The notes under the pieces were generated by a model that was not told the origin of the DNA, did no database searches, and saw nothing but the letters and a program-made list of their open reading frames with translations. This document shows, one piece after another, positions 47,222 through 56,319 of a stretch of DNA of 64,000 nucleotides. The DNA is from Akkermansiaceae bacterium (GTDB lineage: Bacteria; Verrucomicrobiota; Verrucomicrobiia; Verrucomicrobiales; Akkermansiaceae), in assembly GCA_903827375.1 (NCBI GenBank), contig CAIKHZ010000079.1:1-64000 (forward strand), read 5' to 3'. The position numbers were made by a program, and so were the translations under genes. Position 1 is the first letter of the stretch. Every line of letters begins with the position of its first letter.

Positions 47222-50200
47222 CTAGGGTTCCCGGCGGGTGAACTTGAATCCTGGCATGTCCGGACCCGGCGTATCGAGGGCCTGCCGAGAGCCGGTTTGC
47301 AACGCATGCAACATCGTCTGATAGTCCGCATCCGAGGTGTCGGCAAACATCGGGATGGCCGTGCCGTCGGCTTGGTGATCGATACCGCGACCACCGGCGG
47401 ATTTTGGCAGATGCGCGGTTAGAGCGGCACTGCAATGCGGCCGGGTGAAGTTGAGCCAGGCGGTGCGCCCGTCCCAACAGGTGAGCAGGCGGCCATCGGC
47501 CGGATAAGCACCGTGGCAGGATGCACAGCGCCGCGCATAGACCGGCATGAAGTCCTTTGCTAACCACTCAGCGGGTTCGCCGGTTAGAGGGTCCGCGCAC
47601 AGGTCGCGCTTGCCACCACTGCGTGGTCGGCTGGTGGCGTAGGTGCCATAATAGGGCACATTGGCGTCTATCCATGTGTAAATACGGCGGCGGTCTTCGG
47701 CCGGCACGGGGGCACCGCAGTGCTCAACTGTGAGGAAATCCGGCAAGCGGCTGGCATGCGATCCGCTCCCTAGCACTTGGTTTACCGCAGTGGGTGTCTT
47801 GAGGAGCCAGAAGAAATGCACCAGGGGTTTTCCCTTGGCTACCTCCTGTGGGAGCATCTCTCCGGTGTCCATGTTATGCTGGCGATATGACTGGCTTCTA
47901 CCCAACAAGTTATCATAGGCCATGTTGAAAAACCGTGATTTATCGCCGCTCAAATCGTAACCACCATCCACCCGGTCTCCGCCGTGGCACTTGACGCAAT
48001 GGCGGTCTAGAACAGGTTGAACGACGGACACAAAATCAATGATGCCGTCGGCTGCCCAGGCGGGTTTGTGAAGTTGCGAGGGGGCGCGCCGAGCCGCGAT
48101 GGGCACCTTGGCAGAGGTGGGCGGTGCCGAGGTTCGCGACTCATGGCAACCGACGCAGCCAATCGTTTCACCAGGCATGAGTTGAGCGGCGGAGGTCATG
48201 CGCTGAAGTTCACGACCCTCGTCGTCACAGGCTTGAAAGTAGATTTCCCGCATGGCGGGCACGCGGAAATGAGCAGATCCATCCGCCTCGACCGGCACTT
48301 CGCCCCAACAGCGTTTGGCATAGTAGGTGGCATAGCTCATCAGCGGCGACTGGTCGTAAGCCCGCGGCCCGAACTCGACAACGTGGGGCGTCACTGGTAT
48401 ATCTTCGGTTTTGCGCATCTGTTCCATGACGCGGATGGACTTCACCCGGCCTCGCTGGATAGCCGGACCAAGCCCCTGATAGACATCTAGCAACACACAG
48501 GTGCCCATTGGCTGGGCATCAGCCGGATGATCCTCCGGCAAGCCTGTGGCACTCTCCGCTAGATCAGCAGCATGCGCTGCAAGCGATGGCGGCCGGGCGA
48601 TCGGGCTCAGCGCGATTGGGAAAAAGCAATGCAGCGATGCATCCTCATAGAGCAGGCGTTGGCGGTCCGCTAGGTCGTGTAGAAACAGGCGGAAGCGCTG
48701 GGCCGAGCCGCCGTAGGCACATAAGAACCGCTGCTCATCCAGCGGAAACGGATCGCGGTAGCCCCAGGGGTGCTGGGTGTCGCCAATGGTGGGAAATTCT
48801 TGGGTGATCCAGTCGAAGCCGACGCCGCGCGCCGTCTCAGGGCCTTGATGGGTCTCGATCCAACCGATCGCCCCGTGCGGATAGCCGTGATGAGGTGCGA
48901 AGGTGGCCAGCACCCGGTCGCTGCGTCCGGGGATCGGGCGGGCCTGCCAGAGGGTGCCCGGGTCGCGCAGGGTGTTGCCGAAAAATAGCTGATAGCCGCT
49001 GCCGTCCGGGTGCTGGGCCCACAGGCTCTGGCGGAACGTGAGGTCGCGATCCACGTATTCCCAGCGCATGAAGAGGATACGACCATCGGGCAGAAGTTGC
49101 GGCGAGGCGTCGGATAGAGTGTTCATGCTGAGGCATTGAGGGATGCCCCCATCGGGCGAAACCCGATAGAGATTGGAACTGGGGCCGGGCTGGCAAGCGG
49201 TGTGGCCGAAGCGGCGCGTGGAGACAAACACCAGCATCCCATCCGCTGTCTCACAGGGACTCACATCGTAATACGGACCGTCAGTGATTTGGCGCAGCCC
49301 AGTACCATCCACACCGATTCTCCACAGGTGCCAGTTTTTCTCATCCTTGCGGGCATAGGAAAAATAGACCGTCTGCGCGTCTAGCGAAAGGTTCAGATCG
49401 TAGATGCATCCCTCCAGATCTGCGAAAACCGTGCGTGCCCCCAACTCCGGCCGCGACGGTTCTACAATGGCAATGGCGCAACCAGGGGCCGTCGGCCGCG
49501 CCGCCCACACGTCACACCCGACGGCCGGTGGAGCCGTTAATGGATGGCGCTTCAAAAATAGGACCGGCGGCAACCCGTCGAACGCCAACGATGGCGACCA
49601 GGCCCAGTCGCCTTGTTGCAAAAAAGCTCGCCCCAATTGAATGCGACCCGGGGCTTTCAGCGTGATGGTTAGGCGCCCGTCCGCAGCATCCGCCTTTGGC
49701 GTTAGAGCAAACCTGTGTTGCACCCAACCCTCGGCCGCGACGGCTAACGGAATTTCCGCCAGGAGGTGGCCGGCGGCGTCCTGCAAGCCCACAAAAACCT
49801 CCGTCGGGGCGTCGCTTCGGATTGATAAAAACCCCTGATAGGAACGGCCTGCGGCCAATGCCAGGCCGGTTGAACCGCCTCCCGCATACTCGATGCCTAA
49901 CTCACCTTGCCCATCCAACAACTCGATACTTTGATTTTGCCGGGCGGCAAATGGGCCGCCGGATTCCATGGAAAATCCGCCGCGTGCGGCACCACGCCGC
50001 AGTCCTTGCCAACTGGCACAGACGCCGTCCCCGGCTGACGAACCGGCCGTCACAAACGGCAGGGCCTGGCGTGCTCCATCCGATTTGACCCAAAAGTTGC
50101 GGTAGCGGGCGTCGCGCTGCCAGGTTCGCAGGCCCACAGCACCATCGGGCAACACGTGCTGCGGATCTTCGAAGCGCAGCATGCTGTGGCCATCGACGAA

Positions 50201-50692
50201 CACCTCTATCGAAGTTTCCGTGAGCCGCACGACCAGTGGGATCCACGCATGGAGTGGCACCGGGCATGGCAGGTCACGGAGCCCTTCAAAGTTCTGTCGA
50301 TGCCGCCCCAGGCGCAACGTCTGGGTGCTGGCATCAAGGGCCACCTCATAGCCGTTGAAGGCATCAGCCCCCACATCTGCATGACCGACGTTGACGATGA
50401 GGCCGGCGTTGCCCTCGTGCCGGTCTGCCAACCACATCTCCACACCAACCTCACCCCTAACCACCCGCGCGGATTCATGCACCAATTTCGGGCCACCACC
50501 CGCCCCGGCCACCAGCACGCCTTCCTGCACGCCCCAGTCGCCACCATAGCTCTTAAACCCCTTCAGTGGCGCGGCAGCGGCGGCCGACTGGAAGGTTTCG
50601 TCGAGCATGGGCGCATTCGGCTGCGGGACCTCTGCGCTAACGGCCAAACACGGGAAGACCAGGCTCAATCCGAGCAGGACACCGATCCTCAT
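47222..50692 (-). CDS. HzsA-like PD40 protein with three c-type haem motifs
   Basis: I start at the ATG at 50692, which begins a signal peptide (MRIGVLLGLSLVFPCLAVSA); the frame upstream is unsuitable. The 1156-residue protein opens with a LamG or DUF1080-like domain (about 25-210). A PD40/WD40-like propeller region (around 430-720) resembles the middle of hydrazine synthase subunit alpha. Three CxxCH motifs, expected to bind haem c, lie at Cys846 (CVGCHES), Cys899 (CVKCHGG) and Cys1056 (CASCHG). Such HzsA-related proteins are widespread in Planctomycetes and Verrucomicrobia that do not make hydrazine, so their reaction is unknown. Periplasmic redox chemistry on an organic substrate is likely. 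Confidence 0.85.
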   Translation of the reverse strand: MRIGVLLGLSLVFPCLAVSAEVPQPNAPMLDETFQSAAAAAPLKGFKSYGGDWGVQEGVLVAGAGGGPKLVHESARVVRGEVGVEMWLADRHEGNAGLIVNVGHADVGADAFNGYEVALDASTQTLRLGRHRQNFEGLRDLPCPVPLHAWIPLVVRLTETSIEVFVDGHSMLRFEDPQHVLPDGAVGLRTWQRDARYRNFWVKSDGARQALPFVTAGSSAGDGVCASWQGLRRGAARGGFSMESGGPFAARQNQSIELLDGQGELGIEYAGGGSTGLALAAGRSYQGFLSIRSDAPTEVFVGLQDAAGHLLAEIPLAVAAEGWVQHRFALTPKADAADGRLTITLKAPGRIQLGRAFLQQGDWAWSPSLAFDGLPPVLFLKRHPLTAPPAVGCDVWAARPTAPGCAIAIVEPSRPELGARTVFADLEGCIYDLNLSLDAQTVYFSYARKDEKNWHLWRIGVDGTGLRQITDGPYYDVSPCETADGMLVFVSTRRFGHTACQPGPSSNLYRVSPDGGIPQCLSMNTLSDASPQLLPDGRILFMRWEYVDRDLTFRQSLWAQHPDGSGYQLFFGNTLRDPGTLWQARPIPGRSDRVLATFAPHHGYPHGAIGWIETHQGPETARGVGFDWITQEFPTIGDTQHPWGYRDPFPLDEQRFLCAYGGSAQRFRLFLHDLADRQRLLYEDASLHCFFPIALSPIARPPSLAAHAADLAESATGLPEDHPADAQPMGTCVLLDVYQGLGPAIQRGRVKSIRVMEQMRKTEDIPVTPHVVEFGPRAYDQSPLMSYATYYAKRCWGEVPVEADGSAHFRVPAMREIYFQACDDEGRELQRMTSAAQLMPGETIGCVGCHESRTSAPPTSAKVPIAARRAPSQLHKPAWAADGIIDFVSVVQPVLDRHCVKCHGGDRVDGGYDLSGDKSRFFNMAYDNLLGRSQSYRQHNMDTGEMLPQEVAKGKPLVHFFWLLKTPTAVNQVLGSGSHASRLPDFLTVEHCGAPVPAEDRRRIYTWIDANVPYYGTYATSRPRSGGKRDLCADPLTGEPAEWLAKDFMPVYARRCASCHGAYPADGRLLTCWDGRTAWLNFTRPHCSAALTAHLPKSAGGRGIDHQADGTAIPMFADTSDADYQTMLHALQTGSRQALDTPGPDMPGFKFTRREP

Positions 50693-50946
50693 CCGAGCCC
50701 CCGATGCGCGAGTTCTGGTGCCGAAATGGAAAATCAAAAGGGTTGCAAAGAAGAAAATTTCCACTGATTTCGCGAATTGAAGAGAATTGCACCAGCATGA
50801 GAACCCCGAGCTATCACGTGTCAGGCCCCCCAAGACGGTGATCCAAAATCATCCTAACCACAAGCAATTCCAATCATTCCCCCGTCGCTGCATCACCGGT
50901 GAAATACCCCCTGAAAAAATATTTTCGAAAAAATTGCGATTTTCCT

Positions 50947-50974
50947 TTGACAAGGGGCGCGTTCTTTGTACTTT
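50947..50974 (+). promoter_or_regulatory. Candidate promoter upstream of the terminator and methyltransferase
   Basis: TTGACA (50947-50952) is a perfect -35 box. The best -10 candidate is TACTTT at 50969-50974 with a 16-base spacer. Transcription would start near 50981, just before the strong hairpin at 50996. The divergent HzsA-like gene begins at 50692. Confidence 0.45.
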
Positions 50975-50995
50975 CGCCGTGTCGCGACATTATAG

Positions 50996-51065
50996 GCGGT
51001 CCGACTGAGACGACTTCAAGGTTAATGGGTTTTCCTTGAAGACGATCAGTCGGGCCGCTTTTTTT
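50996..51065 (+). terminator. Strong intrinsic terminator or attenuator in a leader
   Basis: A 13-pair stem (GCGGTCCGACTGA with TCAGTCGGGCCGC, one G-U) is extended by an inner 8-pair stem (CTTCAAGG with CCTTGAAG), a 12-base loop and seven T residues at 51059-51065. The structure ends 48 bases before the next ATG and 20-odd bases after a likely transcription start. Transcription from the nearby promoter would therefore end as a short RNA of about 85 bases unless the hairpin is overcome. No upstream gene on this strand needs it. Confidence 0.85.
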
Positions 51066-51113
51066 ATGAGCCGAACCGATGCTGCTCGGCCGGCAACCCC
51101 CCTGAGGAATGCC

Positions 51114-51854
51114 ATGAGTTCGATTTACGAATCCGAGAAACTGCTCGCCGAATACCTGCTGTTTCATTACGCAACGGCAGAGGAAATTTTGCCGCCCGGG
51201 CGGAAATGGCCAGCGGACATGGCTGCGGCTTTGGAATTTCCGTGCCGCACGGTGGCCCATTTTGGCAAGACGCAGGTGGCCCGCGGACTGGACCTTGGCT
51301 GTGCGGTGGGCCGCTCTAGCTTTGAAATGACGCGTCACTGCGATGAGGTATTGGGGATTGATTTTTCGCATGCCTTCATCCGTGCAGCCGAGGCGCTTCG
51401 GGGCGGAGCGGTGCTGGCGTACCATCGGCTTGAGGAAGGCACACAGCGCACCGAACTCAGTGCCACTCGGCCCGCAGGGCTTGATGGCCAGAGATTGCAG
51501 TTTCTTCAGGGCGATGCGATGCATCTGGCTGCGGATCTGGGTGCCTTTGAGCGGGTGCATGCCGCCAATCTCCTCTGCAGACTGAGCGAACCCCAACTCC
51601 TGCTCGAACGCTTGCCGTCATTGGTGAAACCCGGGGGAGAATTGGTTCTTGCCACGCCATGCACCTGGCTGGAGGAGTTCACCCCGCCGGCCCATTGGCC
51701 TGCCCAGAGCACCCTGGCCTGGCTCAAGGCGGCGCTGAATCCATCGTTTTCATTAGAAAATGAGTTAGACGAACCCTTTCTCATCCGTGAAACCGCCCGA
51801 AAATTCCAGTGGTCGACGGCGTTGGTGACGGTTTGGAAGCGGCGAAATGATTAG
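51114..51854 (+). CDS. Putative 4-mercaptohistidine N1-methyltransferase (OvoA C-terminal-like)
   Basis: The 246-residue protein starts at the ATG at 51114, preceded by GAGG nine bases upstream. It begins MSSIYESEKLLAEYLLFHYA, the hallmark of the OvoA C-terminal methyltransferase family. The SAM-binding motif GLDLGCAVGRSSFEM follows at about residue 60, then GIDFSHAFI and a late VKPGGELVLATP. In ovothiol synthesis this enzyme methylates the imidazole of 4- or 5-mercaptohistidine. The sulfoxide synthase half (OvoA N-terminus) is not in the window, so ovothiol production cannot be concluded. A strong terminator lies between its promoter and start, so it may be regulated by attenuation. Confidence 0.75.
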   Translation: MSSIYESEKLLAEYLLFHYATAEEILPPGRKWPADMAAALEFPCRTVAHFGKTQVARGLDLGCAVGRSSFEMTRHCDEVLGIDFSHAFIRAAEALRGGAVLAYHRLEEGTQRTELSATRPAGLDGQRLQFLQGDAMHLAADLGAFERVHAANLLCRLSEPQLLLERLPSLVKPGGELVLATPCTWLEEFTPPAHWPAQSTLAWLKAALNPSFSLENELDEPFLIRETARKFQWSTALVTVWKRRND

Positions 51855-51901
51855 CAAAGGATTAGGATTTCAATTGTACCGGGACGTGCTAGGGTCCGCT
51901 C

Positions 51902-52777
51902 ATGCGCTTGATACGATTTGGCGATAAAGGCAACGAGGAGCCCGGCGTCTGGCTGGCGGATGGCCGCCGGATTGATGCGAGCAGGGAGTTTCAGGATTAC
52001 GATGAAGGGTTTTTCGCGATGGGTGGCTTGGAGTCGCTGGCCGGATGGGTGGCTGACGGCTGCCCGGGTGGCAGCGAGGTGGACCCGGCAATTCGACTCG
52101 GCCCGCCAGTGGCACGACCGTCCAAGATTGTGTGCGTGGGCAAGAATTATCTGGAGCACGCCAAAGAACTAGGCGAGGGAATTCCCACTGAACCGACGTT
52201 GTTCATGAAAGCCTCCAGCGCCTGGAGCGGCCCCTTCGACGACGTGATGCTGCCGCGGGGCGCCGACAAACTCGATTATGAAGTCGAACTGGCCATGGTC
52301 ATCGGCCGTCACGCGTCCTACATCGATGAATCCAATGCCCTGGAATCCATCGCCGGCTACGCCACATTCTGCGATTTTTCCGAACGGGCGTTTCAAAAGG
52401 ACATGGGGGGCCAGTGGACGAAAGGCAAAAGCGCCGACACCTTTGCGCCGATGGGACCGTGTCTGGTGACACCCGACGAGGTGGCCGACGCGCAAGCCCT
52501 GCGCTTGTGGTGCAAGGTCAACGGCGAACTCCGCCAAAACAGTTGGACTGGCGACATGATCCATCCGCTCCGCCACCTCGTCAGCTACATCACCCGCTTC
52601 ATGACCCTGCTGCCAGGCGACGTCATCGCCACCGGCACACCGGGGGGAGTGGCCATGGGGATGAACCCACCGCGCTACCTACAAGCCGGCGACTGGGTGG
52701 AATGCGGCGTCGATGGGCTCGGCGAACTCAAACAACGGGTGGTCGGCTATCAGACTAACAACCCAAACGCCTCTTGA
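51902..52777 (+). CDS. Fumarylacetoacetate hydrolase (FAH) family protein
   Basis: The 291-residue protein has the FAH-fold core: KIVCVGKNYLEHAKELG (about residue 76), DYEVELAMVIG, with acidic metal ligands, then the SERAFQKDMGGQWTKGKSAD region and GDVIATGTPGGVAMG near the end. These enzymes cleave carbon-carbon bonds or hydrolyse keto acids. The sequence around SERAFQ and KGKSADTF is closest in form to diketo-deoxy-fuconate and diketo-deoxy-rhamnonate hydrolases or ureidoglycolate-lyase-like proteins. Given the fucosidases and rhaT in the window, a role in deoxy-sugar acid breakdown is an attractive inference, but not shown. Its stop overlaps the next gene start. Confidence 0.82.
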   Translation: MRLIRFGDKGNEEPGVWLADGRRIDASREFQDYDEGFFAMGGLESLAGWVADGCPGGSEVDPAIRLGPPVARPSKIVCVGKNYLEHAKELGEGIPTEPTLFMKASSAWSGPFDDVMLPRGADKLDYEVELAMVIGRHASYIDESNALESIAGYATFCDFSERAFQKDMGGQWTKGKSADTFAPMGPCLVTPDEVADAQALRLWCKVNGELRQNSWTGDMIHPLRHLVSYITRFMTLLPGDVIATGTPGGVAMGMNPPRYLQAGDWVECGVDGLGELKQRVVGYQTNNPNAS

Positions 52778-53424
52778 AGCGCCGCGCTTCCATCAGCAGT
52801 TGGCCCAAACCGGCGGGTTCCCCGCACCCGGTTGCCTGCCATTTCTGTGATACCCTCCACGAGGCAAGCGCCGTGCCCGAGGGCTCCGCAGCTCGCTGCC
52901 GACGCTGCGGCGTGGTCCTCTATCAAAATCGTGCGGCCTCACTGGTGCGCGTCACCGCCTTTTCCCTGACGGCGCTGATTCTGATGGGAATCGTCAACAC
53001 CTTCCCGTTTCTCACGATGTCGGCCAACGGAATCAAGACCGAGCTAAGCCTGTTCCGGGCGGCCTGCGAGCTCATCCGGGAGGGCAGCCCGGCCATCGGC
53101 TGGTGCGTGGCGATGTTCACCATGATTGCGCCGCTAGTGATGGCTGGCGGCATGCTCTACGTCTGCGGCCCGCTTCTATTTGGCCGAGCGGCCCCCGGTG
53201 CCCGCCATGTCGCACGCTGGCTGGGCCACACCGAACCGTGGAACATGATCGAGGTTTTCTTGTTAGGCGTGTTGGTAAGCCTGATGAAATTGGGGAAAAT
53301 GGCGGATTTGTACTTTGGGGTGGGATTTTGGGCATTTGCGGCGCTGATGCTGTGCATGGCTGCGGCGGTGGCCGGGATTGATCGCAATGAACTGTGGGAC
53401 CGGCTGGAGGTGGCCGCCGAATGA
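52774..53424 (+). CDS. pqiA: PqiA-family membrane protein, first copy
   Basis: The 216-residue protein carries a zinc-ribbon-like pair CHFC and CRRC near residues 23-48, followed by four membrane helices. This is half of the double-domain E. coli PqiA. It begins at a TTG overlapping the previous stop (4 bases), with no better start. PqiA, PqiB and PqiC form an envelope-spanning system that moves lipids between the inner and outer membranes. Here PqiA is split into two genes, this one and the next, whose ATGA overlap suggests coupled translation. Confidence 0.85.
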   Translation: MKRRASISSWPKPAGSPHPVACHFCDTLHEASAVPEGSAARCRRCGVVLYQNRAASLVRVTAFSLTALILMGIVNTFPFLTMSANGIKTELSLFRAACELIREGSPAIGWCVAMFTMIAPLVMAGGMLYVCGPLLFGRAAPGARHVARWLGHTEPWNMIEVFLLGVLVSLMKLGKMADLYFGVGFWAFAALMLCMAAAVAGIDRNELWDRLEVAAE

Positions 53425-54089
53425 ACAACCCTCAAAAATTCCCTTCCCTGCCACGCGCCATCGACCATGGCCTGGCCAACTGCGAAGTCTGCGGGAAAAT
53501 GACCCAGGTGCTGGCACGGCGCTGCCCCCGCTGTGGCACGGCGCTGCATTTGCGCAAGCCTGCGAGCCTGCAACGCACCGTGGCGCTGTTAGTGGCAGCC
53601 TGCGTGCTATATCTGCCAGCGAACATGCTGCCCATCATGACCATTTCGGAGTTGGGCAATGTGATGGCATCCACGATTCTTGAGGGGATGGTCGAGTTTT
53701 GGCACCGTCAGGCGTATCCGATCGCCATCGTGATTTTCGTTGCCTCGATCATGATTCCGATCGTCAAAATCGTGGCATTGGTGTGGTTATGCGCGGCGGC
53801 GGCGGGCAAAGTGCGGCCATCGCCGAGGATTCTCGGGCGGATCTACTGGTTCACTGAGTTGCTAGGGCGGTGGTCGATGGTGGATATATTTGTAGTTTCC
53901 ATATTGGTTGCGCTGGTGCAGTTTGGGGCTTACATGACGGTCACGCCGGGTCCGGGAGCGCTTGCGTTTGCCGGGGTGGTGGTGCTAACGATGTTTGCGG
54001 CAATGAGCTTTGACCCGCGCATGTTGTGGGATCGCCTTGAGAAAATGACTGCCACAGAGAGCCCGGAGCCAGATACCGACCATGAGTAA
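53421..54089 (+). CDS. pqiA: PqiA-family membrane protein, second copy
   Basis: The ATG at 53421 overlaps the previous stop (ATGA) and gives 222 residues. A zinc ribbon (CEVC and CPRC, about residues 22-41) precedes four membrane helices, with LPIMTISELG in the first periplasmic loop and RWSMVDIFVVSILVALVQFG in the second half, both conserved in PqiA. Together with the first copy it would form the inner-membrane part of the lipid-transfer complex. The stop overlaps the pqiB start by eight bases. Confidence 0.86.
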   Translation: MNNPQKFPSLPRAIDHGLANCEVCGKMTQVLARRCPRCGTALHLRKPASLQRTVALLVAACVLYLPANMLPIMTISELGNVMASTILEGMVEFWHRQAYPIAIVIFVASIMIPIVKIVALVWLCAAAAGKVRPSPRILGRIYWFTELLGRWSMVDIFVVSILVALVQFGAYMTVTPGPGALAFAGVVVLTMFAAMSFDPRMLWDRLEKMTATESPEPDTDHE

Positions 54090-55752
54090 GTCCCCATCCG
54101 TCAAACCCGTGACGCCGGAGTTTCGCGCCGCCCAGCGCTGGAACATGGTGTGGGTCGTGCCAATTCTAGCCGTGCTCATCGGCGGTTGGCTGGTCTATCA
54201 AAACCTTTCATCCCGCGGACCCACCGCCCAGGTCCGGTTTGAGACGGCAGATGGCATCGCCGCCGGCAAGACAGAGGTCCGCTGCCGCTCGGTGCGCGTC
54301 GGAATGGTCAAGGAATTGGAATTGGCAGGGGACTTGAAGTCGGTTCTCGTCAATATCCAAATGGACCGCCAAGCCGCCAAACTGCTGTGCGAGGACACCC
54401 GCTTCTGGGTGGTTCGCCCGAGAGTGAGTGCCACCGACATATCCGGGCTGGGCACCCTGCTCACCGGTGCTTACATTGAAGTGGAACCGGGCGGCGGGCA
54501 GCAAGGGACCACCTCATTTCGCGGGTTGGAGGAACCGCCGACGACCAACCGCAGTGTGCCGGGCCGGCGCTTGGTGCTCACGGCGGATGAGGCCGGCTCG
54601 TTAGGGGTGGGCTCGCCAATTTACTATCTTGGGGTGGAAGTGGGCCGGATTGAGAAACGCGAGCTCTCGCCCAATGCGCGGCAGGTTCACTATCATGCGT
54701 TTGTGCGGGAGGAATTCAGCTCGCTCGTGCGGGAAAACACTCGTTTCTGGAATACCAGCGGCGTGGATATCAGTGCCGGGGCTACGGGCATCAAGGTGCG
54801 CACGCCATCGTTTCAGGCGATGCTTGCCGGGGGGGCGTCATTTGGCATACCGGATGGGCTGGAACCAGGCAAACCGGCGACGGATAACATGACTTTCAAA
54901 CTTTATGGAGATGGGGAGGAGGCTCAGAGTTCGTTGTTTGATCCGAGCTTGAAAGTCCTGCTGCTCTTTGATCAATCCGTGCGCGGTTTGACCAAGGGTG
55001 CCATCGTGGAATTTCGCGGCATCCCGATCGGCCGGGTGATCAACGTTTCATTTGACTACCTGCCTTCCGGCAAGGATTCACGGGTGCCCGTGCTCGTCGA
55101 TATTGATCCGGCCCTGTTGCGTCGCAGCATGCAGGGACAGGTGGCGGAACCGGACGAGGAGTTCTTGAAGCAAGCGGTGGAACAGGGCCTGCGGGCGACG
55201 CTGAAAACGGAAAGTTACCTAACTGGCACTCTGTTTGTGGACTTCGCCTATTACCCCGAAGCTGCTGCCGCGACGGTGAGCCAGGCTGGCGAGTTTGCCG
55301 CCGTGCCCACGATGTCAACCGGCTTGGCACAACTTGAAATGAAAGTGACCGCCATTCTCGACAAGATCCAAGCTCTGCCGCTGGATGAAGTGATGGGCAA
55401 CATCGCCAAGGCGGCGGACGAATCGGCCACGACCATCGCCGCGGCCCGCGCCACTTTGGATGAGATCAACACCACCGCTGCAGCGGCTCGAAAAATGTTA
55501 GACGATCCACAATTCCGTGGTGTGCCCACCGACCTGCACCGCACGCTGGCCGATTTGCAAAAGACCATTGCCAGCATTGGACCGGATGGGGGCATGCAAG
55601 GGGATTTATTGCGTACCCTCGATGAATTGCGGGCCTCGCTTCGCTCGATCAAGGGGCTCTCCTCGACGCTTGATGACAAGCCCAATGCGCTGCTTTTCGG
55701 CCGGGATGGTTCCGCCAATCCGGTGCCACGCGCCCCGCGAACCAAAAAATAA
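54082..55752 (+). CDS. pqiB: PqiB-type MCE protein, three MlaD domains
   Basis: The 556-residue protein has one N-terminal membrane helix (residues about 26-41) and three tandem MCE/MlaD domains: VRFETADGIAAGKTEVRCRS (about 52), SLGVGSPIYYLGVEVGRIE (about 173) and VRGLTKGAIVEFRGIPIGRV (about 298). A helical C-terminal part follows. In E. coli, PqiB hexamers form a long periplasmic tube for lipid transfer between the membranes. It lies between pqiA and pqiC with overlapping or close starts, so the operon is complete. Confidence 0.92.
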   Translation: MSKSPSVKPVTPEFRAAQRWNMVWVVPILAVLIGGWLVYQNLSSRGPTAQVRFETADGIAAGKTEVRCRSVRVGMVKELELAGDLKSVLVNIQMDRQAAKLLCEDTRFWVVRPRVSATDISGLGTLLTGAYIEVEPGGGQQGTTSFRGLEEPPTTNRSVPGRRLVLTADEAGSLGVGSPIYYLGVEVGRIEKRELSPNARQVHYHAFVREEFSSLVRENTRFWNTSGVDISAGATGIKVRTPSFQAMLAGGASFGIPDGLEPGKPATDNMTFKLYGDGEEAQSSLFDPSLKVLLLFDQSVRGLTKGAIVEFRGIPIGRVINVSFDYLPSGKDSRVPVLVDIDPALLRRSMQGQVAEPDEEFLKQAVEQGLRATLKTESYLTGTLFVDFAYYPEAAAATVSQAGEFAAVPTMSTGLAQLEMKVTAILDKIQALPLDEVMGNIAKAADESATTIAAARATLDEINTTAAAARKMLDDPQFRGVPTDLHRTLADLQKTIASIGPDGGMQGDLLRTLDELRASLRSIKGLSSTLDDKPNALLFGRDGSANPVPRAPRTKK

Positions 55753-55761
55753 TACCTTGCC

Positions 55762-56319
55762 ATGCTCAAAGCCTTTGCCCTCGCACTCGCCGCTCTGCTG
55801 CTCGCCGGCTGTGGCGGCACCCCGCGCTCATTCTACATGCTCACCGCCGACGGCCCAGCCCCTTCCGGTAGCGGCCGCGGCATCGGCGTCGGTCCGGTGG
55901 CCCTCGCCGAGTACATCGACCGCCCCAACCTCGTGCTGCAAGATGGACCTAACCGCTTGGCGGTGGCAGATGCCCACCGCTGGGCCGGCGACCTGGCCGC
56001 TTCCATCGCCCGCGTCACCGCCACCAACCTCGGCCGACGCCTGCACACCGGCAACCTCCGCACGTACCCGTGGCAGCGCGACGAGGAAATCAGCCACCAA
56101 GTGACCCTGGATATCCGCCAGTTCCACGGCGGTGCTGATGGCTACGCGGTGATCGAGGCCGGCTGGCGCGTCTATGCCTTGCCCGAGCGTCGCCTCACGG
56201 CATCGCGCACCTTTGTAGCTCGCGAGCAACTCACCTCCGATGGCTATCAGGCGCTGGTCGCCGCGCAATCAAAGTTGCTGGCCCGCCTCGCCGCCGACAT
56301 CGCCGCCGGCATGCATTAG
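55762..56319 (+). CDS. pqiC: PqiC-type outer-membrane lipoprotein
   Basis: The 185-residue protein has a lipoprotein signal (LLLAGC, Cys19) and the ABC-type auxiliary lipoprotein (PqiC) pattern FYMLTADG, then IGVGPVALAEYIDRPNLV and WAGDLAASIARVTATNLGRR. It would sit in the outer membrane as the acceptor end of the PqiAB system. It begins 9 bases after pqiB. The downstream giant protein gene starts 57 bases later, past the natural end of the operon. Confidence 0.88.
   Translation: MLKAFALALAALLLAGCGGTPRSFYMLTADGPAPSGSGRGIGVGPVALAEYIDRPNLVLQDGPNRLAVADAHRWAGDLAASIARVTATNLGRRLHTGNLRTYPWQRDEEISHQVTLDIRQFHGGADGYAVIEAGWRVYALPERRLTASRTFVAREQLTSDGYQALVAAQSKLLARLAADIAAGMH

Follow-up and report, generated by a model that had tools for sequence, protein, structure and literature searches.

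The element studied here lies directly upstream of a methyltransferase gene in a 64-kb window (the whole stretch of DNA that was analysed), and FAA hydrolase and Pqi-like genes follow further downstream (Table 1; the family of the first PqiA-like gene was inferred from BLAST clusters of relatives and those of the others from Pfam). The methyltransferase had been described as being of the ovothiol type, and the corresponding family is indeed its best match, though with a score just below the cut-off. We note that the minus strand at 47222–50833 encodes a protein of ~1200 residues that matches hydrazine synthase alpha weakly and only in part (48 bits; cut-off 800). Rather than a true hydrazine synthase, it is probably a TolB-like propeller whose C-terminal part resembles a cytochrome.

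A preliminary description of this DNA had reported a TTGACA box, a long hairpin, a seven-T tail and a distance of 48 bases to the ATG, and both sequence and fold bear out each of these, position included. The TTGACA forms a −35 box (50947–50952) and is followed after a 16-base spacer by a weak −10-like box (TACTTT, 50969–50974). TTGACA occurs 15 times in the 64-kb window and is not rare, and the putative promoter at 50947–50974 is absent from the list produced by a generic promoter scan; our promoter claim is therefore based on a position conserved across relatives, where other copies of the element lacking a sigma-54 box have TTG near −35 and TA near −12 at an equal offset to the RNA start.

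The hairpin has an outer stem of 15 pairs (50994–51008 with 51046–51060), a small internal loop within which two further pairs form, and an inner stem of 8 pairs (CTTCAAGG, 51014–51021, with CCTTGAAG, 51034–51041), and the earlier count of 21 pairs was slightly low as about 25 form. The sequence from 50970 to 51113 folds at −58.6 kcal/mol compared to −43.0 ± 3.8 kcal/mol for shuffled sequences (z = −4.1, with none of 200 shuffles as good), and no other hairpin on either strand of the 64 kb has at least 12 of 13 pairs immediately 5′ of six Ts. The T run is separated by 48 bases (51066–51113) from the ATG at 51114. As the gene upstream of the element is divergent, no gene terminates at the hairpin, in agreement with the earlier remark that no gene needs this terminator. 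The whole window gave zero Rfam matches at the gathering cut-off; the preliminary description had likewise seen no match to known SAM or SAH riboswitches.

Table 1. Features of the element and of the genes downstream of it, with positions in the window and the basis for each assignment.
Feature	Position	Strand	Basis
Putative sigma-70-like promoter of the small RNA	50947–50974	+	Sequence; offset from RNA start as in other non-sigma-54 copies
Predicted small RNA gene, ~85 nt (GUCGCGAC 5′ end, long hairpin, U tail)	50981–51066	+	Covariance-model match (E 1.8e-23); three paralogues; conservation limits
Conserved 5′ end, GTCGCGAC	50981–50988	+	Mean pairwise identity 0.82 over the first 8 bases in 63 copies with unrelated upstream DNA
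Hairpin	50994–51060	+	Fold; covariation
Conserved apical loop, UUAAUGGGUUUU, 12 bases; candidate target- or protein-binding site	51022–51033	+	Loop word near-constant across copies
Seven-T tail of intrinsic terminator	51059–51065	+	Sequence
Methyltransferase gene, TIGR04345-like; neighbour of the small RNA	51114–51854	+	TIGR04345, 165.9 bits (cut-off 170)
FAA hydrolase, two PqiA-like, PqiB/MlaD-like and PqiC-like lipoprotein genes	51902–56319	+	Pfam matches; synteny

Copies in the window's genome and across the Verrucomicrobiales

Three further copies of the element are present in the genome that contains the window (at C308, C261 and C30, with 87, 79 and 70 percent identity, respectively), and the four copies adjoin unrelated genes. 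A gapped pattern search of this genome found exactly these four and a covariance-model search found no real copy beyond them; minus-strand model matches on the same element were rejected as separate genes, being echoes of a near-palindrome. The mark of sibling small RNAs is that closely similar ones occur together in one genome, and the window's genome has four such copies, judged at the level of similarity only. Most copies also have a putative promoter and terminator of their own, seen as consensus matches to promoter boxes at a constant spacing and as a T tail.

The genus to which the window belongs is Luteolibacter, as judged by its named members. A model built from 19 copies (R1) matched 72 of the 73 genus genomes, among them all 48 of good quality, with as many as 14 matches in one genome (some minus-strand echoes are counted here). 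R1 also matched 111 of 260 genomes of the family, in which a second genus (g18) showed almost no matches, and a broader model (R2) matched 150 of 387 genomes from 28 of the 50 genera sampled across the Verrucomicrobiales. When a phylum-wide sample was searched, 16 of 387 genomes matched, and all but one of these (a marginal match, E 4.6e-5) fell within this order. Among named relatives, a pattern scan found the element in Luteolibacter pohnpeiensis and in MAGs labelled Akkermansiaceae, Verrucomicrobiaceae, Verrucomicrobia, Luteolibacter or Akkermansia.

The surroundings of the copies recur in several forms. In about 30 genomes of the genus, copies of the sigma-70 type are followed by an FAA hydrolase gene, two pqiA-like genes and a pqiB-like gene, and the RNA often has a dsbD-like gene as its neighbour on the opposite side. 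In the window's clade the methyltransferase gene is located between the RNA and FAA hydrolase genes. A second conserved location for the family is found in genus g22 (L250–L252 and L254–L256), where copies are divergent from a neighbouring pyruvate carboxylase-like gene. In a further subgroup (L168, L173, L178, L186, L198, L204 and L220) the copies lie 3′ of an AraC/XylR-like regulator gene, which in several cases is flanked on its other side by a sugar-isomerase-like gene.

Tandem copies with separate promoters also exist. L168, L173 and L178 each have two tandem RNAs with a sigma-54 box on the first only, and one genome with up to 14 model matches (G080) has four and three tandem sigma-54 copies in ~1.2 kb and ~0.7 kb (L182 and L177, respectively). 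We also note an Acido-Lenti-1 RNA (Rfam RF01687, 38.6 bits against a cut-off of 37) located between small RNA copies in one relative (L185, 3574–3627).

Conservation, covariation and promoter classes

Across 63 copies from the genus whose upstream DNA is unrelated, identity is 80 percent between the predicted first base and the T tail but falls close to chance in the flanks, at about 26–34 percent upstream (a low value that arises partly by construction, as these copies were selected on upstream dissimilarity) and 25–29 percent past the T tail (where no selection was applied). The onset of conservation coincides with the first base predicted from the promoters, and its end with the T tail. A class of copies other than that of the window begins with GTCGCAAGAC, which is a possible GNRA mini-hairpin.

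The stem is conserved as a structure. Pairing holds in 96.8 percent of cells in an order-wide set of 68 distinct sequences, and 15 of 20 pairs have changed on both sides, with a covariation score of 0.374 compared to 0.233 for shuffles and no more than 0.136 for slid controls, and a genus-only alignment agrees with this (alignments A6 and A9 were fitted to the model and are thus biased towards the modelled stem). When the 19 seed sequences were aligned independently with MAFFT, four pairs covaried and pairing was 97.4 percent. The loop UUnnUGGGUUUU is near-constant across copies whereas the inner stem varies freely, which suggests that the loop is the likely working part of the molecule. Family f2 has the loop GGGGGUUU and similar loops are seen in other families of the order, and 128 of the 129 occurrences of the loop word in the loci examined fall inside copies. 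A small open reading frame in the loop of the window copy (AUG GGU UUU CCU UGA) was considered and rejected, since the AUG and frame are not kept elsewhere.

Many copies are preceded by a sigma-54 box (TTGGCACG-N5-TGCT). This starts at −27/−28 in 48 of 122 distinct copies, for which all other offsets over 300 bases together gave 28 sites and the reverse strand 17. The majority of the remaining copies, including that of the window, have sigma-70-like boxes, and a looser count of 148 copies placed 57 in the sigma-54 class and 70 in the sigma-70-like class with 21 unclassified. The sigma-54 box is absent from all four copies in the window's genome, and among the copies fetched both kinds of promoter occur in 24 of 72 genomes; RpoN is present in 66 of 73 genomes of the genus. 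Sigma-54 promoters require an activator protein, and no clear motif for a common activator site emerged when the DNA 5′ of the sigma-54 copies was searched.

The paralogues, the conservation confined to the transcript, the covariation and the promoters at a fixed distance strongly support the view that the element is a small RNA gene, and a product of about 85 bases, one of two possibilities raised in the preliminary description, is what these comparisons predict. They likewise support the transcript boundaries, structure, copy number and promoter positions proposed here.

The neighbouring methyltransferase gene and alternative readings

The hairpin is found 5′ of the methyltransferase gene in seven of the 30 closest orthologues (those of G000, G028, G065, G066, G035, G087 and G006), and these seven genomes are close relatives, the window's own being G000. 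The gap of 46–53 bases between hairpin and gene has no clear promoter in any of the seven, so read-through into the methyltransferase may occur in these genomes. Elsewhere, where the FAA hydrolase gene follows the RNA, this gene mostly carries, as judged by eye, a −10-like box of its own just 5′ of the ATG and would not need read-through. We note that this box (for example TATACT or TATCAT) is located 6–7 bases 5′ of the ATG at L203, L209, L213, L215, L216, L223, L236 and others, perhaps also at 51880–51902 in the window, and suggests that the FAA hydrolase mRNA is leaderless.

These observations bear on a combined reading in which a small RNA gene has a leaky terminator, with read-through expressing the methyltransferase in the window's clade. 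It is favoured by the short promoter-poor gap kept in seven genomes and by the −10-like box (seen by eye) that mostly precedes the FAA hydrolase gene where this follows the RNA elsewhere, but little read-through is to be expected past so strong a hairpin with its T tail, and we regard such dual use as unlikely, if by no means negligible.

The other possibility raised previously was that the methyltransferase operon is controlled by transcription attenuation or by a ligand-sensing leader, in which case the hairpin would stop most transcripts and be relieved conditionally. The same seven genomes and their promoter-poor gaps could be read in this way, and the riboswitches and attenuators of SAM-related genes resemble the element in having a hairpin and T tail 5′ of a methyltransferase gene; they differ in that the linkage here is restricted to one clade and the element matches no Rfam family. 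There is no hairpin 5′ of the other 23 of the 30 closest orthologues, however, and conservation upstream of orthologues, the test which the preliminary description had set for itself, extends to close relatives only. Most copies of the RNA are located elsewhere and many face convergent genes, as do 39 of the 62 copies tagged as sigma-54 by a loose pattern, for which a leader function is therefore excluded. In addition, the linked hairpins match the stand-alone ones in sequence and structure and have similar folding energies, and the covariation, analysed for the hairpin itself, supports a single structure. Attenuation is accordingly improbable, and the suggested control by a ligand is without support. 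We consider the methyltransferase to be a neighbour of the RNA in one clade and not its general partner, and control of the gene by the RNA is not supported in general. No methyltransferase was found in the viral contigs searched for it.

A mobile or selfish repeat of the REP or MITE type would fit an element that is dispersed, multi-copy and near-palindromic with up to 14 matches per genome, but we give this very little credence in view of the constant transcript with promoters of differing type at a set spacing from it, the one-sided T tail, the covariation, the low copy numbers, and the long-lived synteny at the dsbD–pqi and pyruvate carboxylase loci.

Proposed role and comparison with known small RNAs

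Judged from sequence comparisons, it is highly probable that the element is a small RNA gene in its own right, with three siblings in its genome, and a member of a Verrucomicrobiales-wide family that pools inputs and probably acts through its loop. Transcription would start at ~50981 from the sigma-70-like promoter and end at ~51066 at the hairpin and U tail to give an RNA of ~85 nt. We infer that the gene is transcribed and that the RNA works in trans by way of its exposed loop UUAAUGGGUUUU, perhaps together with the GUCGC 5′ end, either by pairing with mRNAs or by binding a protein. Sibling copies in relatives would provide an almost identical RNA from sigma-54 or sigma-70-like promoters, and since these siblings are under different promoters, several signals could feed one RNA pool, as far as the promoter classes indicate.

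The Qrr small RNAs of Vibrio end at an intrinsic terminator. Like the element, they are present as several siblings in one genome, and they are transcribed from sigma-54 promoters (PMC4211561, PMC10162802). They differ in sequence and belong to a different phylum. Members of the Qrr family are recognised by the Rfam model or a conserved 32-nt core, and a permissive Rfam scan of the element returned chance matches only with no Qrr among them, while scans of five loci from relatives found no family that fits the element. Many siblings here, including the window copy, have sigma-70-like promoters instead, and the sigma-54 promoter typical of Qrr is seen in 48 of the family's 122 distinct copies and in none of the four in the window's genome.

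GlmY/GlmZ and CrcZ/CrcY are also small RNAs with sigma-54 promoters, and glmY can use both sigma-70 and sigma-54; the element differs from them in length, structure and sequence and has no match to them in Rfam. With regard to Hfq dependence, the element has a U tail. OmrA/OmrB and other sibling small RNAs provide a precedent for tandem related RNAs with differing promoter regions (PMC4211561), and our element is similar in this respect but unrelated in sequence, with promoter use and genome positions that are far more varied within its family.

The family is new in being absent from Rfam 15 and from the open-access literature searched, in which no description of the element was found among reports on small RNAs in Luteolibacter, Akkermansia and Verrucomicrobia. 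Small RNAs are scarcely known from this group, a survey from 2022 having listed eight annotated ones for the whole of the PVC group compared to 345 for the Proteobacteria (PMC9029176). As it is widespread, structurally supported and present in the culturable Luteolibacter pohnpeiensis, it is directly testable. With rather less assurance, we lean towards the wider proposal that this may be an undescribed small RNA regulator of the whole order, in which one RNA copied to many loci would serve as a sigma-54 and sigma-70 hub joining signals via a constant loop. The sigma-54 and sigma-70-like siblings of one RNA offer a natural series on how RNA copies acquire new inputs.
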